This document shows positions 2,386-58,600 of a DNA stretch of 64,000 nucleotides, piece by piece (positions within the stretch are counted from its first letter, which is position 1; the number at the start of each line of letters is the position of its first letter). This DNA comes from Polytrichum commune (taxonomy: Eukaryota > Streptophyta > Polytrichopsida > Polytrichales > Polytrichaceae): contig OX485808.1 of NCBI GenBank assembly GCA_950295325.1, forward strand, positions 36,047,180 through 36,111,179. Reading direction: 5' to 3'. The translations under genes were made by a program, and so were the position numbers. The notes under the pieces were generated by a model. It made no database searches and had not been told where the DNA came from. It was given only the letters and a program-made list of their open reading frames with translations.

Positions 2386-3150
2386 AATTGCAAAACAAAA
2401 TCAATCTCCCAAACTTTTAAACTATAATGCATGATGCCTTCCAAACCCTGCTCGTTCCACATCTGGACTGCATTCATGTGTCTACAGCTCGAATTCTTTT
2501 GTCTACCTACCTTGCTGGCAACTAAGAGTATTTACCGGTTTCAAAAAAGTATGCTGCATTCTCTTCTAGAGCACTTACCAACCTTTAGACCTCCAATTCA
2601 CATGCACACAAATATAAATGTCACATCCAGACATGAAAAAGACACAAACTTCTTCTTATGTAGATACCACAACTTACAAAACAAAACCGATCTCCAGAAC
2701 TTTTGAGAGCACGGGCACCACAATGCAAGATGCCTTCCTTCATGAATCCTGACTCATTCCATGTGTGAACTCCATTCATGTGTTCTTCCGCTCAATTACT
2801 TTCCCTACCTACCTTGGTGAGAACTAAAAGTGTTGCTACTAAAATCTCAAACTCCCACCTGTTTCAATACCAACCTTTGAATCTCTAATTCATACGGACA
2901 CCAATAAAAATGTTACATCCAGACATGAAACCACACAAACCTTTTTATGTACATAGCACAAATTGCGAAACAATGCAAGATGCCTTTCCTTCAAAATACC
3001 CTGACACCCCATTCCACATGTAGCCTCCACCCATTCACGTGGTCTACATCTCAAATTCTTTGCCCTACATACCTTGCATCGAACTACTACTGTTCCTCCC
3101 AACTAATATCTCAAACTCTTACCTGTTTCAAAAAAATGTGCTACATTCTC
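2386..3150. repeat. Three diverged tandem units derived from the 3' end of the UROD gene
   Basis: Units start at about 2386, 2668 and 2959 (periods about 282 and 291 bases). Each holds 'caaaac..aat/atctc', 'gcAtGATGCCTTCC', 'TTCCACAT', 'TCATGTG', 'CCTACCTACCTTG', 'TTACATCCAGACATGAAA' type segments. The unit nearest UROD runs into its last codons. The first unit still contains a recognisable copy of those codons on the minus strand around 2537-2580, reading LEENAAYFFETGKY against [16 protein letters not shown] in the gene. The middle unit keeps only a short remnant of it. Confidence 0.75.
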
Positions 3151-4332
3151 CTCCGGGGTACCAACCAACACACCATGTCCAAGGTTAAGAATGTGTTTAT
3201 GCCTCCCTGCCTTGGCTACCGTATCGTGTATTCTCCTCTCAATAAACTCCCGTGTACCGAACAAAGCCGCGGGGTCCATGTTCCCCTGCACCGCTAAATG
3301 GCTCCCTATCCTCTCTCTGGCCTCCGCCATATCCACAGTCCAATCAACACTCACCACATCAACACCCGTGGACGCCATCCGCTCCAACAATCCACCACTT
3401 CCACTAGCATATAAAATCAAAGGCAAATCCGGATGAGTACTCTTCACCGCAGCCACAATCTGCTTCAGATAAGGTAAACTAAAAACCTCGAAATCAACCG
3501 GACTCAAATGCGTGGCCCAGGAGTCGAAAATCTGGACGGCTTGCGCACCACAATCCGCTTGATACCTAACGTAAATGATCACAGACTCCGCGAGCTTCTG
3601 AAGCAACGAGTGAAGAATCTCCGGTGACTCGAACGCCATTCTCTTAATAATCGTGAAATGCTTAGACGAGCCTCCCTCAACAATGTACGACGCAAGCGTG
3701 AACGGGGCTCCTACAAAACCTAAGACCGCGGACGCGTTCCCAACCTCGGAGCGGAGAGCGGTCAGAGCTTGCCCTACGTAAGGAACAGCCTCCTCGGGTA
3801 CGAGTTCGCGAACTTGTGCGACATCGGATTTCGTTCGCACGGGGTTATGTATCACGGGCCCCTTGCTCTTGAGAATGTCGAATGGAATGTTCATCCCCGT
3901 GAGAGGTGTGAGGATGTCGGAGAAGAGAATTACTCCGTCGGGCTTGAACGCTCGCCATGGTTGGAGTGAAACTTCTACTGCCAGCTCAACATTCTCGCTC
4001 CGTTCCCTGAACGTTGGATGTTTCTCGCAAAGCTCCTGGTACACCTTCATGTAGCGGCCTGCTTGGCGCATCATCCATACCGGGGGCCGCTCGATTTCCT
4101 CTCCTCGGATGGCTCGCAGCAGTAGAGGCGAGTCGGGGCTCTCTGTTGCGCTTGCGGTGGTTTGGTTGCGGGTGTCTGTCTCCACTGCTTGTTGTGCGCT
4201 TGCGGCAATTCGGTGGTGGAAGGGGAGGTTGGTGCGTGGCGTGTTGCGGGACGTGAAGCGCGAGAGGCGCGAGCACGGGGAGGTCGAAGGGAGGAGCGTG
4301 GACGGGGTGGTTGCTGCGGCCATGGTGGCCAT
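3103..4332 (-). CDS. HEME: Uroporphyrinogen decarboxylase, plastid-targeted, intronless
   Basis: A single open frame of 409 residues. It encodes uroporphyrinogen decarboxylase, which removes four acetate carboxyl groups from uroporphyrinogen III to give coproporphyrinogen III in heme and chlorophyll synthesis, in the plastid in plants. Residues 1 to about 65 are rich in Ser, Thr, Arg and Ala with few acidic residues, typical of a chloroplast transit peptide. The first family signature [11 protein letters not shown] is at 84-94, FSDIL with the catalytic Asp at about 139, the second signature [17 protein letters not shown] at 205-221, and NLGHGV with a conserved His at 386. The C terminus [11 protein letters not shown] matches the family end, so the gene looks full length. 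I chose the ATG at 4332 (A at -3, G at +4). A second ATG three codons on lies in GCCACCATGG and may also be used. The frame is open to 4434 but the extra residues are not family-like. Lack of introns contrasts with every other complete gene here. Confidence 0.95.
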
Positions 4333-4409
4333 CGTCTCTGTTTCGCTGCGAAAACACCAACGAACGAAACCAACAGACAAGGGACTTGGAAATAGGCAGA
4401 CCCAACGCA

Positions 4410-5055
4410 AAGGAGAATCGGATTCGCTATCCAAAACGCCTCATCCACAACTCAAGCCCAATCGAGGTGCCAAGCCATGCACTTCTCAAGACCTCAATGT
4501 GTATATACATATATATCCATGTCTCAAGGTACACCACCCACACGAGAAAGAAAGATTGACTTGCTATTCAAAATTTCTCATCTCTAGGGAATTAGTGGGT
4601 TTGACACCATCCCGATGTTTTTTACTCTCATGAGTCTTTTGATTTCCCTGAATTTAAATTCAATTTCATTTCTTTCCATAAGCCCAATCGAGGTGCCGAA
4701 CCAAGTCCTGTTGAAGATTGAGACCTCCTCTTGAGTTTGGTTTGGGAAGGGGGGGGGGGTGCATTTCTCATGTAATCAAATTGGGGTAAAATGATTTATA
4801 ATCGAATGCGGTTTATCAATGTGGTTCAAACAAGAAAGAAAGCATGACTTGCTATCCAAAACTCCTCATCCGCAACTCAAGCCCAATCAAAGTGCCAAGT
4901 TGTGCACTTTTGAAGACCTCAATGCCCATGTGTCAAGATAAATCATACGAGCAAGAAAGAAAGAAAGAAAGATTGACTTGTCAATGAAAACTTCTCGTCC
5001 ATTGTATAAGCCCAATTGAGGTGCCAAACCAAGCACTTTTGGAGACCTCAACCTC
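4410..5055. repeat. Diverged tandem units upstream of UROD
   Basis: A compound motif recurs near 4410-4500, 4548-4725, 4832-4925 and 4955-5050. It consists of 'GAAAGAAAG.TTGACTTGCTA', then 'AA..CTCATCC', then 'AAGCCCAATCGAGGTGCC' and 'GACCTCAA'. The first unit overlaps the likely UROD 5' leader. The gene therefore has diverged copies of both its upstream and its downstream flank. A run of ten or so G is at 4750-4760. Confidence 0.65.
4499..4520 (-). promoter_or_regulatory. Possible TATA box of UROD
   Basis: On the minus strand this reads ATATATATGTATATACAC, about 170-185 bases upstream of the UROD start codon. Position and composition fit a plant TATA box with a leader of roughly 130-150 bases. 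AT-rich DNA produces such matches by chance, so this is only a candidate. Confidence 0.3.
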
Positions 5056-12654: not shown

Positions 12655-13690
12655 TTAAAAATTTGTCCACCTACCCTTAGGAGCTATAACAATTGCAATG
12701 CGCTCAGGCATGCTCCTATACAAGTTCTTACTCTCATTGGGAGTAATTGAAGCCCAACAATCCTCAACACGCTCCCACAATTCTAACATTCCTTTGGGAG
12801 GTCTCTCATATTGGTTTAGTCGACGTTTTAAAGTTGCCCACAAGTGTTCGATCGGATTCAAGTCTGGAGATTGCACCGGCCACTTCAAAACAGTAAATTC
12901 TTGCGAATTCAGCCAACGGCGCACACTCTTGGATGTATGTTTTGGATAATTATCATGTTGAAAAATCAAATTGGCAGGATCCAAATTATATGCATGCAGC
13001 GTATGAATCAACTCTCGCTCTAAAATTTCTCTATACATGTACTGATCCATTCTTCCCTCAATCCTACACATCATACCAGGGCCACTCAGAGTCATGCAAC
13101 CCCACATCATCACTCCCCCACCTCCAAACTTGACAGTTTGTTGCACCATTCCAGCACTTCTACTCTGTCCATCACGAAACCAGCACCAATTGCGACCATC
13201 AGAGCAAAATCGGTTGATTTTTGTTTCATCGGAGAATACTAGACGATCCCAATCATCATCAATCCAATGGCAATGACGTCTAGCAAATTTTAATCGTCCC
13301 TTAATTTGAAGAAGTGTGAGCTTTGGTTTCTTTTGCTTCACTTTACATTTCAAACCTGCTTTTCATAACACTCTCCTCACAATACTATCGCTCATACCAA
13401 CATGAAGCTCTTCTCTCAAGGAATTTCCAACTTTGTGTGCAGTTTCTAAGCCACCCACAGTGATTTCTCTTACACAAGCTATATGATCAGCTGCACTGTA
13501 CACCTGTGGCCTGCCACCAAAACTGTTATTGACATCACTCAATTCACTCAAATGTTGCTTACGAAATTGTGCAACCCAACTTTGGGATACGGTACCTGTA
13601 AGTCTCTAGCAACATTTCTAGTACTTTCACCCCTCCTCAACTTCTCTAAAGTAGCTTCTTCTATTTACTTTCTACCTTGGGGGGGGGGGC
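12655..13690 (-). pseudogene. Tc1-like transposase, broken
   Basis: The catalytic part at 12655-13353 is open for 232 residues. It contains VFSDETKINRF (first Asp), IFQHDNYPKHTS (second Asp) and SPDLNPIEHLW (Glu), with 34 residues between the second Asp and the Glu (DD34E). WGCMTLSGPG and the VLKWPVQSPDLNP stretch are typical of Tc1-like enzymes. Upstream, the helix-turn-helix part continues to about 13690. It is interrupted by an in-frame TGA at 13363-13365, a frame shift near 13590-13605 between NVARDL and VSQSWVAQF, and a TAA near 13660 after GRK. A run of G at 13680-13689 closes the readable part. Such an enzyme would cut and rejoin the element's ends at TA sites. This copy cannot be functional as it stands. 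Confidence 0.9.
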
Positions 13691-25889: not shown

Positions 25890-26900
25890 CCATATTCAAA
25901 ACGATGAGATTCGTTGACAGTAGAAAGTCCAGAGAATTTTCTGACGACACGGAAAATCTTAGGTTCCGCAAGGACCTTGAGATGTGAACTTGAGTGGCGA
26001 GGACTACGAAAAATCGTGTGCAAATTGGTGCAAGACCGGCCGATATCCGTTGAGAGTAAAAGTTAGGTACTTGTCAGTTGAAATTCGTCTTCTTCTTGCC
26101 AAGAAATGAGCGTCTGTACATTCGCAAGACCGTAACCTCCCAATTTGATGGCCGTGCAAGCAAGCTATGATCTCCGACTTTTCGGTTGAGAAACATTTGA
26201 ATCTGACAACACGGGGTTTGGTGAGGGCCGTGAGATATGAGCTACGGAAATTCTGTTTGAAAATTTCTGTAAGAAGCAGTAATGAATACCTTGCAGATCG
26301 AGTGATTGTCAGCTGAACTTCTTGCCAAGAAGCTAGTTTACCTTCCAACTTCGTGGCTGAGCAAGCAAGCCATCTCCGACTTTGCGTGGATTCTCGAAAC
26401 ATCAGCTCCGAGATAGCCTTACGAAGCGATGGGATGGATGTTAGTGGCGTAAAAGGAGATGCGTGAGTCATCGCCACCGAAAAGATGAGATTCTTCGAAA
26501 TTAGAAGAAAGTCGGTGAGGACTAAGGATGTGAACTTGTGTGCCGAAGTCGTGTGAATGTTTTTGTGCAAGGAGCCGGATTACAGTTCAAGACAGTACCC
26601 TCCCAATTTCTTGGCTGGGCAATAATCCATCTCTTTCCCGCTTTTAGTTGTTACTCGTAATTAACATCAGCCCCGATATATCCTTACCATGCAATGGGAT
26701 GGATGGTAGCAGCATAACAAGGACATCCTTGAGACATCGCCACCAAAAAGATGATCTGATTCGTCGAAAGAAGAAAGTCGGTGAGGACCGAGGATGTGAG
26801 CTTGAATGCCAAAATTGCATGTCAAACTCTGCGCAAAGAGCCGAAACACAGTTCAGTGTAATTTTCAGCTGAAATATGCTTCGTATCTTGCCAAGTAACT
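25890..26900. repeat. Diverged tandem units upstream of the lipocalin gene
   Basis: A block containing 'GATTCGTCGAAAGAAGAAAG', 'TCGGTGAGGACCGAGGATGTG', 'GAGCTTGA.TGCC' and 'CATCGCCACC.AAAAGATGA' occurs at 26740-26880 and 26470-26580, and more weakly at 25900-26030. Blocks 'GGCTG.GCAAGCAAGC.ATCTCCGACTTT' also repeat near 26150 and 26365. The longest open frame (26004-26570, minus) is probably a by-product of this repetition. Confidence 0.6.
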
Positions 26901-27119
26901 CGTATGTTTCGCTCACCTGCAAGACGCTCACCTCTCGACATCTTGGCTACGCAACCAAAACAACCACCAACCAACCAACCAACCAAGTCACCTACTCCAA
27001 CGTTTCCTCATTTCTCGAACAACCGATTCAGTCATTCCAAGCATGGAACTATCACCTTCATAGTCATTGCGCCACACAATCTTGATATTATGTATCAAAG
27101 TCGAACATTCCAAGCCATC

Positions 27120-30100
27120 ATGGAACTACCAAAACCTCGACCGACGTTCTTGATCACTCTTCTTCTCGCAAACCTCTTCCTCCTCCTCCTGCCCAAAACT
27201 CAAACCCTCACCTTCGACACACCTCCCGATGGAGCAGGAACTCTTCACCTAAGCTCATTCTGCGACCGAGCAACATCAAACACTACCATCACAACGTGTC
27301 CCGCCATCTCCACATTCGACCTAATCGACATCACAGCCTACGCAGGACTGTGGTACGAGATCGGAAGCACCGCACAGTTCAAGCTCACAACGTCGGCAGG
27401 GATGAGCCGAGTGGAAACAAACTACACAGTAATTCAAACCACCTCCTCCTCCTCCTCGGACGAGGATCATCATCTCCACTCCACCACGACAATCTCTGCA
27501 GTGAACAGCGAGGTTCGAACGCTAGGCCCAATTGCAACGACAGGAGTGGCAGGGATCAACCGAGGCGCCAAGGACGTGTGTCAGGGGGTTAGGGACGTGT
27601 GTTCTTCGCTTGGCTCCCAGAGTGACTTAATGCAGTCTGTGAATGAGCTGTGTAAAGTTGCGTATATACTTGCGGACGATCGGCCGGACCTGTCTCCGAC
27701 CCTGACGAGTGTGGCGAAGCAGGTGCAAGGGTACGCTCTCAACATCTCCAGGGAGCTGCCTATGTTGGCGAGGCATGTGAAGGAGGTGCAGGTCCAGAAT
27801 GGGTACCTGAGTGAGGCCAATGGGACGGCCAAGGCCAGAGTGGAGCAGTTGCGGTTGGATCTCATCGCCATCAGCAAGCATGTGGGTGTGATTGTGGAGT
27901 TTGTGAACGAGATGGCCGCCGCGAGGAAGTCCCTCGTCGAGGTTAGTCTTGCAACCACACCATCTTCTTCGGAACCTCTAAAGCTACACATGGTGTCTTC
28001 TTCTGGACGGCTCCACAATTTGCACATACTCTTTTGGCATGTGGATGAGATCACCGTGAATCGTCTCATCCGGTTAGCAATTGTGAAGTCTAAGTCATGA
28101 AAAATGCTGTTTCAAGTGTCAAGTAAATTGGAATCTGATTTGCAAAAGTTATAAGAGGTCAAAGTGAAGATTCTTCTTTCTCGTCTTTTCAAGCAATGAG
28201 CAAGTATGTGGATGTGATTCTGGAATTTGTGAACGAGTGGATGGTTGCTTCAAGGAAGTGTCTCGCTGAGGTGAGCTTTGCAACCACATCTACTTCTTCC
28301 AAACCTCTAAAGACAGACCTGATGTCTACTTCTGGAGAACTCCACAATTTGCACATACTCTCTTGACATGTGGATGGGGTCACCGCGAATCGTCTCATCT
28401 GCTTAGCAATTGTGGAGTCTAATTAAGTCATGAAGATGATACCTCAAGAAGTGCTCGTGACATCTCAAGAGACAACTATCAAAAACAAAGTCGCTGTTTT
28501 CAGTGTTCAAATTGGCATTCAAGCTCGTCTATATATGTCTCGATTGATCAATTGAAATTGAAGTGCGAATCTGTGTGTCAATCTTTGCGCAGGTGGCATT
28601 AAAGCTAGTCATGGGTGGAGAATTTGTGAACTCGGTCGACGTGACTGAAGCGTCCGTGATAATAGCAGGTGCTGAGCAGAGTATATTAGTGAGCACGAAA
28701 CGCATCGAAGAAAGTCTGGGTGGCATGAGAACCGCGTCCGAGCTCATACTTTCAGATCTAAACAGGCCCATGGGAGAGGTGGCGTGGGATATTCCTGCCA
28801 TCGCCACTCAGAACGAAACCTCCAAAGGCAAACTCCAGGTGCGATTCATTCCTAAACAAGATTCATCCTCGACACTTTTTGAGTCAATTGCATGCCGTGC
28901 CGGGGATTCGCTCCCTTGTAGAGATACGAACCACTTGAGATGAAGGGGTGCTTTCAGGGGAGCTATATAATAATGCACATATTCATGGAATATTCCTCAT
29001 ACTTGATGAAATTTTGGGAATATATCTAATATACATTTTAGTTTTATTTTTTAATATCCTAAATTTTTTAGTTTAACATTTTTATTTTGAAACATTAATC
29101 AAAATCTTATCTTTGATTGCACCACATGTTTTAGTGGAGCGTCAGTGCTCCTCCCCACCCCTCCATCCTTCCCTTGCTATTTGATTAGTGCATTTTTGGG
29201 GGTGGCCATGATAATTTGTAGAATTTGCAAGGGTCAACGTTTTTAGAATATGATTTGAAGCTGCTAAAACATTTTCAAGGAGCACCTCCATAGTTTTGGA
29301 GTTGTTAAGTTTGTATTATCTAAAACACTTTTAGGACTACAATTTTTTTGAAATTCAATCAAAAGTGAAACAACTAGGTACAAAGAATTTGGATGGTGAG
29401 CCCTAATGCTTTAGGAAAAATGCACTTCAAAGCACTTTAAAATGTAAGCCTTCTTGAATTATGATAAAAGTGATATCAGTAAAATCCTCTCAATGCATGT
29501 AACCACAACCTATGGGGTAGGGGCCTTCCTTATAGGGATAATAATGAACCAAATGCAATAAAAGAGTATTTTCAAGGGGACTATGAAGTAATGTGTATAT
29601 ATCATCAGATGTATGGATTGTTCCATACATCTGATGAATATTGTAGAACTTTATGTTATACATTCTCAAAATGAATTTCTAGTACCCTATATTTAAGTTA
29701 TTTTTTCAATAAGATTTATTACTCTTGATTTTATTCCACCTTATTAAATTTTTGCACATGGTTCTTAATATATTACAAAGAGTGAGCTCCACACCACCAA
29801 GGAGCCACTACGGTGTGCATATCTCATGTTGAAGCGAAAATTAAAGTTGTAGTTTGATTTGGACACCAAACAAGATGCAGAGGATTTTGTTTTGTTTTAT
29901 CAATGGCTCTGCCCTATGGGAAGAGAATCCTAAGGGTGGTCTCTGAAATACATCAAAGTTTGGCTATCAACCAAAACCTACCACATATGGTGTTAGCAAC
30001 ATGCTTCACAAGCTGAGTCCAGTTGCAACGGACATTTTGATGTAAACTGGTCGTTAAAATGAGCCCAAAGTTTGGTCATGGATGGACAACCAATCATGAT

Positions 30101-30506
30101 TGGCCACGTGTGCAAGATAATACTAAGACAGAGCACTCTTGCGACTAGCCGCTTGTTTAAATCATTCTTCTAATCGGGAATCAAAGTGGGGTGTGTGCAG
30201 TTTTCTATCATGGGATTGTCCGTTCCATATTGGATCATAGCGCTCGAGGGGGCTCCATCACATGGTTACAAAGCGGCACTCGTGTACTCTTGCATGGAAA
30301 ACTTGGTAGTTGGGGCGATCGAGCAATCGTTCTTCGTATTATCAAGGACCCCCACAATTCAACCCGCAATATTAGAGCGGTTCATTAATGTGGCGGTGTC
30401 TTTGGGAATCGATCTTGAGTGTGAGAATCCATTCTTACAATCAACGTGTGCAAACTCCTCGCCCGTTGTGAAAGAAGCACCGACACCCCTTACGTGTTGT
30501 AGCTAG
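27120..30506 (+). CDS. Secreted lipocalin-like protein with large helical insertion, three exons
   Basis: Exons 27120-27941, 28593-28838 and 30201-30506 join in frame to 457 residues. Residues 1-29 (MELPKPRPTFLITLLLANLF, then LLLLPKTQT) form a typical signal peptide. FDLIDITAYAGLWYEIGSTAQFK at 66-88 (quoted in part as GLWYEI, 76-81) is the lipocalin G.WYE motif, followed by the strand ETNYTVI. The last exon gives VPYWIIALEG at 364-373, then YKAALVYSC and FFVLSRTPT at 400-408, matching the C-terminal half of lipocalins (apolipoprotein D, bacterial Blc). Between the second strand region and GKLQFSI (353-359) lie about 170-200 mostly helical residues not found in normal lipocalins. Cys at 48, 60, 154 and elsewhere could form disulphides. 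Family knowledge suggests binding of a small lipophilic ligand outside the cell or in the secretory path. The inserted part is unrecognised. An in-frame ATG at 27090 would add ten residues and weaken the signal peptide. Confidence 0.75.
27894..28425. repeat. Tandem duplication covering the end of lipocalin exon 1 and the start of intron 1
   Basis: Sequence 27870-28095 is repeated at 28197-28425 with about 80 percent identity by eye. The second copy keeps an open frame (SKYVDVILEFVNEWMVASRK, then CLAE) in place of SKHVGVIVEFVNEMAAARKSLVE, and it still ends in a good donor (GAG|GTGAGC). It lacks an obvious AG acceptor with a pyrimidine tract, apart from TTTTCAAG just before it. Confidence 0.75.
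29603..29636. repeat. Perfect 15-base palindrome
   Basis: CATCAGATGTATGGA, a four-base loop TTGT, then TCCATACATCTGATG. It lies in intron 2 of the lipocalin gene. It could be a remnant of a MITE. Confidence 0.8.
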
Positions 30507-55660: not shown

Positions 55661-58600
55661 ATGGACGGTACTTTGGAAACACGGATGGGTCTGCCAATTG
55701 ATGAACAACAGCTCAAGGTTCCTCCTTTTCAAGACGTAAAAGTTCAATGCTGTCCTCTTTTGCGAAAGCGGGGTGAAGGGCCCATACGCATTTCCTTTGA
55801 GGGAAATATTGGGGTAGGGAAGTCTACAATTTTGAAGCTGCTTAGTTCGCATCCCCAACTTTATCAGTTGAGTTTCACTCTTCTCCCTCATTTCTCCCTC
55901 ATGTGTTTGCATTTTTCTAGAGATAATCTCAAAGAAATTCTATTTCACCTCAAAAAGAATGTTTTGAGAATATTGCTTGGTGTTGTAGCATGAAGAATAT
56001 TGCTTGTATGCCTAATTTTTATGTCAAGGCATGTGTGATTGATTGCTTGGAAGTATCATGTTGCTGTTTTTACATTACTTGCTACAGCGCCAAAAGCAAC
56101 CAACCAGTTCTGAAGCAATAAAGATAAAATAAATTCATCGTATCCATGCAAAGCTGGTGGCAAATAATTCATGCAATCTTTCTTTTCCAGTTGTGAGCAA
56201 GATGGCATATTCATCCTTTATTGTGGATGTTTTTGCTGAATTTTTGCAAGGTATGGGGGTGTTATTCGTTTTTTGTTTTGTTCACATTCTCCAACTTCTG
56301 CTGATTAGATTTACGCAATGAAACTTGTGTTGCATTAGCAAATCTAAGATGGATCTTCAGCAAAAACTGGATTGAAATTCAGACCCCCTCTGATTTAGTG
56401 ATGATTGTCGGAAGTGTATGTTTGTTGAGTCCTTAACTGAATACATAGGTCCTCACAATTGTGTGGACTATTGGGTGTGGAGTAGTTAAAAAAATCTCTA
56501 GACATAGTACAATCTCTTTTAAACACGTGTCTTATGGTGTTTGCTCTTTTGATCCTCACCGAACCACACACCAATCATATATAAATGCCCGATGAAGAAA
56601 AGCAACCAAATGACACCCACATACCTTATCAAAGCATATCTTGTTTTGTGCTGTATGTTGAGATGGATTGTTCTTTTTTTTGCAGAGTAATTGAAACGTT
56701 GCAAGAGCCACTTGGGGAGTGGCAAAATGTCAACGGTACAGGTCTCAATATGTTGGAGGCTTTCTACAAAGATCCCAAGAGGTCTCTCATTTCCACTGTT
56801 CTACCCAGTGGTAATCCATGAAGTCATATCATTATAGAGCTTGCAAATAATTAAATTCATATTGTGATTTTCATTTGATCAATTTTACAATATTCATAGC
56901 TCTTGATTTATCAAATTGTCTCCCTTTTATTGCATCGGCTTTGTGATTCCATGTCAAGTCTGAGTGTGGAATTGTGTTTTTGTGTTTATGGGGCAGGTAT
57001 GCTTACCTGTTTCAGAGCTTTGTATTTACAACTCGATTTCTTCAGGTGAATGAAGCCGCATTAAAATCGAAGGCATCACTCTTGTTGACCGAGCGGTCGG
57101 TTTTGACAGACCGATGTGTGTTTGTGGAAACGGCTATAGAACAAGGTTATTTTAACACTCTCGAGGCGGCGGCCTACGATGCATGGTACCAAGGCGTATT
57201 GGCAACACTCCCAACTGCGGTATGTCCCTATCGAATGTCTTCGCTGACTGATTTAATTACTGTAAGTTGCTGTCTGGTTCAACACAAAATAGTTAATTCT
57301 TGGAAATTATATTTGCCATGTGTTGTATCCACGTCAGTCAAGACCATGCTCAATCCAACATGGAAATCAGCTTTTGGTACTCTATGTGTTGAACCAGACA
57401 ACACTCTACGGTAATCAGAGGCATCCTCTAACTCATTGGGATTTTTCATTGGAAGTTGGTCCCCTATGATTTTCCATTGGTTGCTTTGTATACAATAACG
57501 ATTTCTTCTTTCCACTACACCGTTTATGGTATTTAGTGTCGTTTACTATTGGGTGTTACTCAGGGCTATATCTTTTTAACGATAATGTAAGTTTTAACCA
57601 TGTAAAGAAGTTAGTGTTCTATTTTGTCCATACAACCAATTTGACCTTTGTGGGTAAAAGATCAGATCTATAATAAATAGTTAGAGCTTCGTGTAATTCC
57701 AATAGTAAGTGAACTAAATACCATAGATGGTGCATGGTTGGATTTGAAAGAACGGTAATCTATTTCAGTTCATTGAGGGGCCAAACTCATTTTAGCACCT
57801 CTTGATGGCATGTCAAAATGAGTTCAATTCTTAATGAACCGATATAGAATGTTCTTCGTTCAAATCTCCGCATGACTAAGTTACCTCCAGGCATGCACCG
57901 AAAGCTTATGAAACATGGAAGGTGTTGATGTATGCAAAACAACCAACCCCCACCCAAAAGTCATGTTGAGTTGGAGGATAAAATTTGATTGTCCTTGCAA
58001 ACATTCAGTTTGGATATATATATATATATATATATATAGGTTTTACCCATTGCAAAAAAATCATCAAAGCTTCGGCCTTCATTTTTTCTAAAGCCTCATA
58101 AGGATCTATTTTCTTTCCAAGTTTTCTATATTGGCATTTTTGGTCTTCTTGCAAGTTGTCCCCCCAACCACTCAAAGTTGGCTCAAACTTTAAATTGCAG
58201 GTTCCAGATGCCTTTGTCTACCTCCGAGCTGATCCGACAGTGTGTCACGAGCGTCTGAAAACACGGTATGAATTTTCTTCTTAAAGGCATCACTCCAAAA
58301 ACATTCACAAGAAAAACATTACCAAGTTCAATGTTCATAAATTCGTCCAAGCTGCATTTGTATCAAGTTATTATTGTTTTCAATGTGGTTCAATTAATCT
58401 ATACAGAAGAGATGATGATATCTGAAGATATGGATGCATGCCCTTTGTTTCTCTTGTATCTAAATTTCTGATTGTACTTTTTGACCCAAAGCCTATACTT
58501 GGACTGTGAGTTTACAAATAGAATTAATATGCTTAGAGGGTTTGATCCACCATCTAACTCATGACCTTCCCTAAATGAAACGAATAAGTTGGATCTGTGC

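Follow-up and report, generated by a model that had tools for sequence, protein, structure and literature searches.

A Polytrichum commune gene that may encode a secreted lipocalin carrying a helical insert of about 200 residues

Can a lipocalin barrel be interrupted by a domain-sized helical stretch and still be recognized as a single domain? The question is raised by a locus of Polytrichum commune that lies in a 64,000-nt stretch of genomic DNA, analysed here as a whole and referred to as the window. Three exons on the plus strand (27120–27941, 28593–28838 and 30201–30506) join in frame without a stop codon, and their translation gives 457 residues. Both introns are GT–AG introns of phase 0, and the terminal codon of exon 3 is TAG. 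The reading frame is open from 26862 and holds a second in-frame ATG at 27090, upstream of the ATG at 27120. This exon placement had been proposed in a first-pass annotation, which also assigned a signal peptide and the G.WYE motif to the first exon and PYWIIALEG and FFVLSRTPT to the last. The proposal held up on translation: the exons join in frame, exon 1 encodes a signal-peptide-like start, as judged by eye, together with G.WYE (residues 76–80), and both C-terminal motifs were found in exon 3. The features of the gene are collected in Table 1.

Table 1 Features of the three-exon lipocalin-like gene (window coordinates; aa, residues of the 457-residue product)
Feature	Position	Strand	Basis or remark
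Signal-peptide-like start, aa 1–29	27120..27206	+	Translation; judged by eye
Cys60 (TCP), first of the cross-half pair	27297..27299	+	Aligns with apolipoprotein D CP cysteine and paralogue C48
Lipocalin N-half, strands A–B, G.WYEIGSTAQFK, aa 61–106	27300..27437	+	19.7 bits, profile positions 26–68
Possible strands C and D, aa 107–148 (TISAVNSEVR, ATTGVAGIN)	27438..27563	+	Tentative placement; a second candidate scores alike
Helical insert, exon-1 part, aa 149–274	27564..27941	+	Codon signal; low-confidence AlphaFold helices
Intron 1, GT–AG, phase 0	27942..28592	+	Donor percentile 0.995 among window GT sites
Helical insert, exon-2 part, aa 275–347	28593..28811	+	AlphaFold helix on exon 2 alone
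Start of strand E, aa 348–356, NETSKGKLQ	28812..28838	+	Profile match from aa 348; last codons of exon 2
Intron 2, GT–AG, phase 0	28839..30200	+	Donor percentile 0.957 among window GT sites
Lipocalin C-half, strands E–H, C-terminal helix and stop, aa 357–457	30201..30506	+	Profile and paralogue identity
Cys387 (VYSC), second of the cross-half pair	30291..30293	+	Aligns with apolipoprotein D VYSC cysteine and paralogue C164

Donor sites were scored with a matrix, and the percentiles in Table 1 are relative to the GT sites across the 64,000-nt window. GC content by codon position in the exon-1 part of the insert was 0.60/0.37/0.75, a pattern matched by 0 of 2,000 shuffles. The corresponding periodicity was not significant in exon 2 (218 of 2,000 shuffles), exon 3 (1,588 of 2,000), the lipocalin portion of exon 1 (635 of 2,000) or the two introns (991 and 1,673 of 2,000). 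The codon signal therefore backs translation of the exon-1 insert only. The protein contains six N-glycosylation sequons, and we infer that the three-exon product is spliced, secreted and glycosylated.

A sequence spanning the border of exon 1 and intron 1 (27867–28101) recurs as a tandem copy, 81–87% identical, inside intron 1 (28193–28434). This duplicate of the exon end is real but lies outside the proposed product. It carries a donor-like site at 28271, the second-best donor of the region by this matrix, and an AG seen by eye at 28203–28204 would border a 66-base in-frame stretch that is a possible alternative exon. Diverged direct repeats, with spacings of 205 to 581 bases and several of about 265, occupy 25899–26954 upstream of the gene. 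Elsewhere in the window are a uroporphyrinogen decarboxylase frame (3106–4440, minus strand), a Tc1-like transposase frame (DDE_3; 12658–13362, minus strand) and a deoxynucleoside kinase exon (56947–57411, plus strand).

The two ends of the chain were compared with a profile of 35 bacterial lipocalins, confirmed from 64 candidate stretches in a prokaryote scan that was queried with a paralogue from contig C2 of the same genome; this paralogue was itself one of the profile rows and is thus not independent of the profile. Residues 61–106 and 348–429 matched collinearly with 44.0 bits in total, the latter stretch contributing 21.8 bits over profile positions 97–167. Pfam Lipocalin_2 (PF08212) likewise matched the joined chain in two stretches (27.2 bits against a cut-off of 24; E 4.3e-6). 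Searched separately, as the first-pass annotation had proposed for the halves, exon 1 (14.4 bits) and exon 3 (16.4 bits) each fell below that cut-off, which is why the gene went unlisted when the whole genome was searched with Pfam. Once residues 148–349 were left out, the Lipocalin_2 match became a single stretch over profile positions 1–138 of 146 (30.6 bits, E 3.7e-7). The best of 21,115 single excisions removed 134–343 and yielded one domain of 56.0 bits over profile positions 26–167 of 178. Shuffling the C-half brought the score to at most 26.8 bits and shuffling the N-half to at most 32.1 bits (60 trials each), against 54.6 bits in the same coarse scan; this collapse indicates that both ends are needed for the match. 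G76, W78, Y79 and E80 are invariant in the alignment, and LSRTPT aligned with its last-strand R; we take the G.W of strand A and this R to be the lipocalin-defining motifs. Strand periodicity at 170 degrees was suggested in the N-half (66–148; 24 of 500 shuffles) and absent from the C-half (331 of 500 shuffles), the latter being a point against the barrel. The profile, excision and shuffling comparisons support the reading that both ends are collinear parts of one lipocalin domain.

The halves also share a candidate disulfide. Cys60 and Cys387 correspond to the cysteines in CP and VYSC of apolipoprotein D, which bond to each other. If Cys60 and Cys387 do the same, the two halves would be tied to each other across the insert. 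Both cysteines of the pair were present in 0 of the 35 bacterial rows, all 35 of which have a gap at the second column. Apolipoprotein D has four conserved cysteines forming two intramolecular disulfides, according to an excerpt of PMC8530192. Its strand-B cysteine is found in the C2 paralogue and is absent from this protein.

Apolipoprotein D was also the best match in the PDB, a weak one (residues 59–107 and 348–433, E 0.018 joined, neither piece being significant alone) that reached E 0.00055 without residues 148–349. With the apolipoprotein D/Lazarillo/Blc group (PF08212, PF00061) the protein has in common a signal-peptide-like start, G.WYE, the CP...VYSC cysteines, the last strand and the C-terminal helix region; unlike this protein, members of that group have about 170 residues and no inserted domain. 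A search of the genome (408 Mb, 64 contigs) with the protein returned the gene itself and the C2 paralogue (five matches; six best candidates scored). The paralogue (G000:C2:59541361-59541891, minus strand; L006) is 41% identical over residues 47–106 and 37% identical over 350–435. It also has WYEIGSTAQFK, VYSC and LSRTPT, but all of its barrel lies in a single open frame of 226 residues, without the insert. Its PDB matches to Blc, Sandercyanin and apolipoprotein D (E 1.6e-9 to 7.3e-8) are closer than the one to TIL-1 (E 0.0091), and the paralogue may have an upstream exon.

Among the matches listed in a genome search with PF08212 were the C2 gene and one TIL-like gene on contig C1. TILs belong to the same Pfam family as this protein, and the C1 gene, which has a break at profile position 112, lacks the insert. 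Plant lipocalins are classed as TIL and chloroplastic, and TILs are without a targeting peptide, according to an excerpt of PMC2527315. Set against plant TILs, which have no targeting peptide and an uninterrupted barrel, the present protein has a signal-peptide-like start, judged by eye, and an insert. VDE resembles this protein in being a plant lipocalin that carries large additional regions; in an excerpt of PMC13181403 its barrel is surrounded by flanking domains, one of which is believed to take part in oligomer assembly through coiled coils. The extra parts of VDE flank the barrel, whereas the extra part here interrupts it. The VDE profile (PF07137) gave no listed match to the joined chain at E up to 10, in a search whose HMMER filters drop most matches above 0.1; in the genome it had at least five matches, on contigs C1 and C3. 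The genome also holds 28 NAC-domain matches, apparently representing about 14 genes, five matches to microbial-type terpene synthases, and eight to a fungal-type lectin (FB_lectin) within about 244 kb (G000:C3:54242166-54486206); among the lectin matches, three opposite-strand pairs score equally. Such a combination of families, VDE included, suggests a bryophyte.

At both 100 and 103 degrees, residues 149–347 showed roughly double the hydrophobic periodicity of shuffled sequences (0 of 500 shuffles at each angle), and in the barrel parts it was not above shuffles (239 and 221, 301 and 343 of 500). A rough Chou–Fasman calculation was less clear and mixed over the insert (mean helix 1.058 versus strand 1.022). 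AlphaFold, run on exon 2 alone, predicted one 40-residue helix (exon residues 17–56 of 82; residues 291–330 of the protein), with a mean pLDDT of 72.4 in the best model, in which block means over the helix were 65–95, and of 51.2 to 61.7 in the other four. The model of exon 1 alone was poor (mean pLDDT 41.2): it placed low-confidence helices at 169–185, 193–227 and 234–273, further helices at 65–77, the strand A region, and at 136–163, the proposed strand D, and strands at 84–93 and 96–105, and was mostly helical after 136. At the sequence level, the reading of the stretch between the halves as about 200 extra, largely helical residues is largely supported by the periodicity and the exon-2 helix.

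The insert resembled none of the families searched. No Pfam family exceeded its cut-off in a search of the insert by itself, which the first-pass annotation had also proposed (DUF1664, PF07889, 14.8 bits versus 34.6), or in a search of exon 2 (DUF5749, 12.9 bits versus 28.2), and no NCBIfam model did so on the exons. The only PDB matches to the insert had E values of 0.96 and 1. Within its own genome the insert found only itself and no second copy among the two candidates scored, and in viral contigs three stretches fitted a pattern and none was confirmed. An origin from internal repeats was considered and rejected, the exon-1 part matching the exon-2 part no better than shuffles did (156 of 500); among ten helix pairs compared, only h1–h2 stood above shuffles (1 of 300).

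The right edge of the insert (343–350) is better fixed than its left edge (about 107 to 150). All 25 best single excisions had right edges at 343–350, and TSKGKLQ at the end of exon 2 is already strand-E-like. Profile positions 69–96, which cover strands C–D, were unmatched on their own, and 241 residues occupy the place of these 28 positions. By eye, ISAVN and TTGVAGIN (124–147) resemble strands C and D, and GKLQFSIM strand E, in comparison with the paralogue's IIGYASVVSRGRLAVTFF; this placement would imply one insert, in the D–E hairpin, which sits at the closed end of the lipocalin barrel. The single-excision scan, which tests one cut only, preferred a left edge at 126–136. At left edges of 172 and beyond, reported at every fourth position, the score did not exceed 33.3 bits, with a small bump at 240 (33.3 bits). 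The helix-rich stretch that had been annotated at about 149–340 retains its helical character, but its limits shift, the right edge to near 344–350 and the left to somewhere in 107–150.

The C–D hairpin might instead lie within this stretch, at about 218–245 (VKEVQVQNGYLSEANGTAKARV), so that one barrel would carry two inserts, about 110 helical residues from B to C and about 100 from D to E. Among 10,000 double excisions the top score, 66.8 bits, indeed kept 218–245 (27771–27854), against 64.4 bits when residues from 120 were kept, and the bump at left edge 240 in the single scan and a motif, V.V.N...SEA.GTA, like that of bacterial rows such as L029 point the same way. MAFFT placed lipocalin C–D material there in two alignments, with strand C of the paralogue near 216–235 and the bacterial strand D near 230–240, that is, inside the insert. 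Alignment A2 (31 of the 35 bacterial loci, without L035, L037, L038 and L042) was set aside as support, strand D having fallen inside the insert, and no later result rests on alignment A3 (20 of the 35 loci). The difference between 66.8 and 64.4 bits is, however, meaningless beside shuffled middles, which over 25 trials gave a mean of 63.6 and a maximum of 68.5 bits, the unshuffled middle scoring 64.0 in that scan. Because shuffled middles score as well, the sequence does not choose 120–147 (one insert) over 218–245 (two inserts), and the gain from removing the middle supports no particular edges. The strand periodicity suggested at 66–148 and the low-confidence helices modelled over 193–227 and 234–273 argue against two inserts, which we regard as unlikely, if the strongest of the alternatives. 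The insertion within one barrel proposed in the first-pass annotation is supported by the collinearity of the ends and the need for both in the match; its assignment to a single loop is one of two placements that fit equally well.

The remaining alternatives concern the insert itself and the transcript. An insert that is a low-constraint spacer, such as an exonised intron or an expanded loop, with no fold of its own, would leave a lipocalin in which one loop is very long. Such a spacer would account for the lack of Pfam and NCBIfam matches over cut-off, the insignificant PDB matches, the single genome copy among the candidates scored and the low AlphaFold confidence of the exon-1 part; the helix periodicity, equalled in none of the 500 shuffles, and the 40-residue predicted helix, with block means of pLDDT up to 95, make it improbable. 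A shade less probable still is a main product of ordinary lipocalin size, in which an internal donor of exon 1 joins exon 3, the insert is skipped and the three-exon form is at most a minor one. Phase-0 GT sites at 27513, 27546, 27576, 27588 and 27597 do join exon 3 in frame and give one domain of 37.9–43.9 bits, but four of the five donors score 1.2, 0.79, −0.5 and −0.5 against 5.08 at 27942 by the same matrix, and that at 27546 is outside the 12 best phase-0 sites. Moreover, a direct join to exon 3 drops the start of strand E and scores below the best excision (56.0 bits), and the insert within exon 1 has a separate codon signal. Least probable of all, in our estimate, is a decaying gene in which reading continues from exon 1 through intron 1 as far as the stop at 28098–28100 and exon 3 is a remnant. 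The frame is open to 28100 and the intron holds a tandem duplicate of the end of the exon, yet the three exons have open frames of matching phase and are bounded by GT–AG introns, and the cysteine pair and the motifs are retained in both halves.

We favour, by a slight lean, a three-exon gene for a secreted lipocalin with one barrel and a helical insert of about 200 residues, acting as a carrier or scavenger with an arm. One eight-stranded barrel would be built from strands A–D, encoded by exon 1, and strands E–H with the C-terminal helix, encoded by the last codons of exon 2 and by exon 3. About 200 residues of amphipathic helices would be inserted between the halves, most likely in the D–E hairpin. 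The protein would most probably carry or scavenge a small hydrophobic compound outside the cell, with the ligand held inside the barrel, and the helical arm might let it assemble with itself or dock on a membrane, wall or partner. What the arm does is the part of this proposal in which we have least confidence, and it is doubtful. The in-frame exons, the two collinear halves, the need for both and the helix periodicity between them are observed; the single folded barrel, the insert-bearing loop, the binding of a ligand and the function of the arm we infer. The protein is, in sum, a real-looking, unusual lipocalin variant whose function we offer as conjecture.

A broader suggestion, which we hold tentatively and somewhat short of an even chance, is that the gene represents a lineage-specific class of plant lipocalin with a helical arm of about 200 residues, made up of one D–E insert or of two inserts flanking C–D, that is secreted and assembled or docked through the arm. 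The top-ranked open-licence full texts showed no plant lipocalin into which a helical domain is inserted, which agrees with the first-pass annotation's remark that no such protein was known; orthologues without a name may well be in public records. In the literature examined, lipocalin barrels vary by short loops, such as the 10- and 20-residue insertions of one cluster (excerpt of PMC4532494), or by additions at their ends, as in VDE (excerpt of PMC13181403). Interrupted genes can escape domain searches, as happened here. If the proposed structure is true, a domain-sized insertion within the barrel would mean that the lipocalin fold tolerates far more, and would offer protein engineers a natural fusion point. 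It would also mean that a secreted kind joins the two classes of plant lipocalin, TIL and chloroplastic, that are described in an excerpt of PMC2527315.
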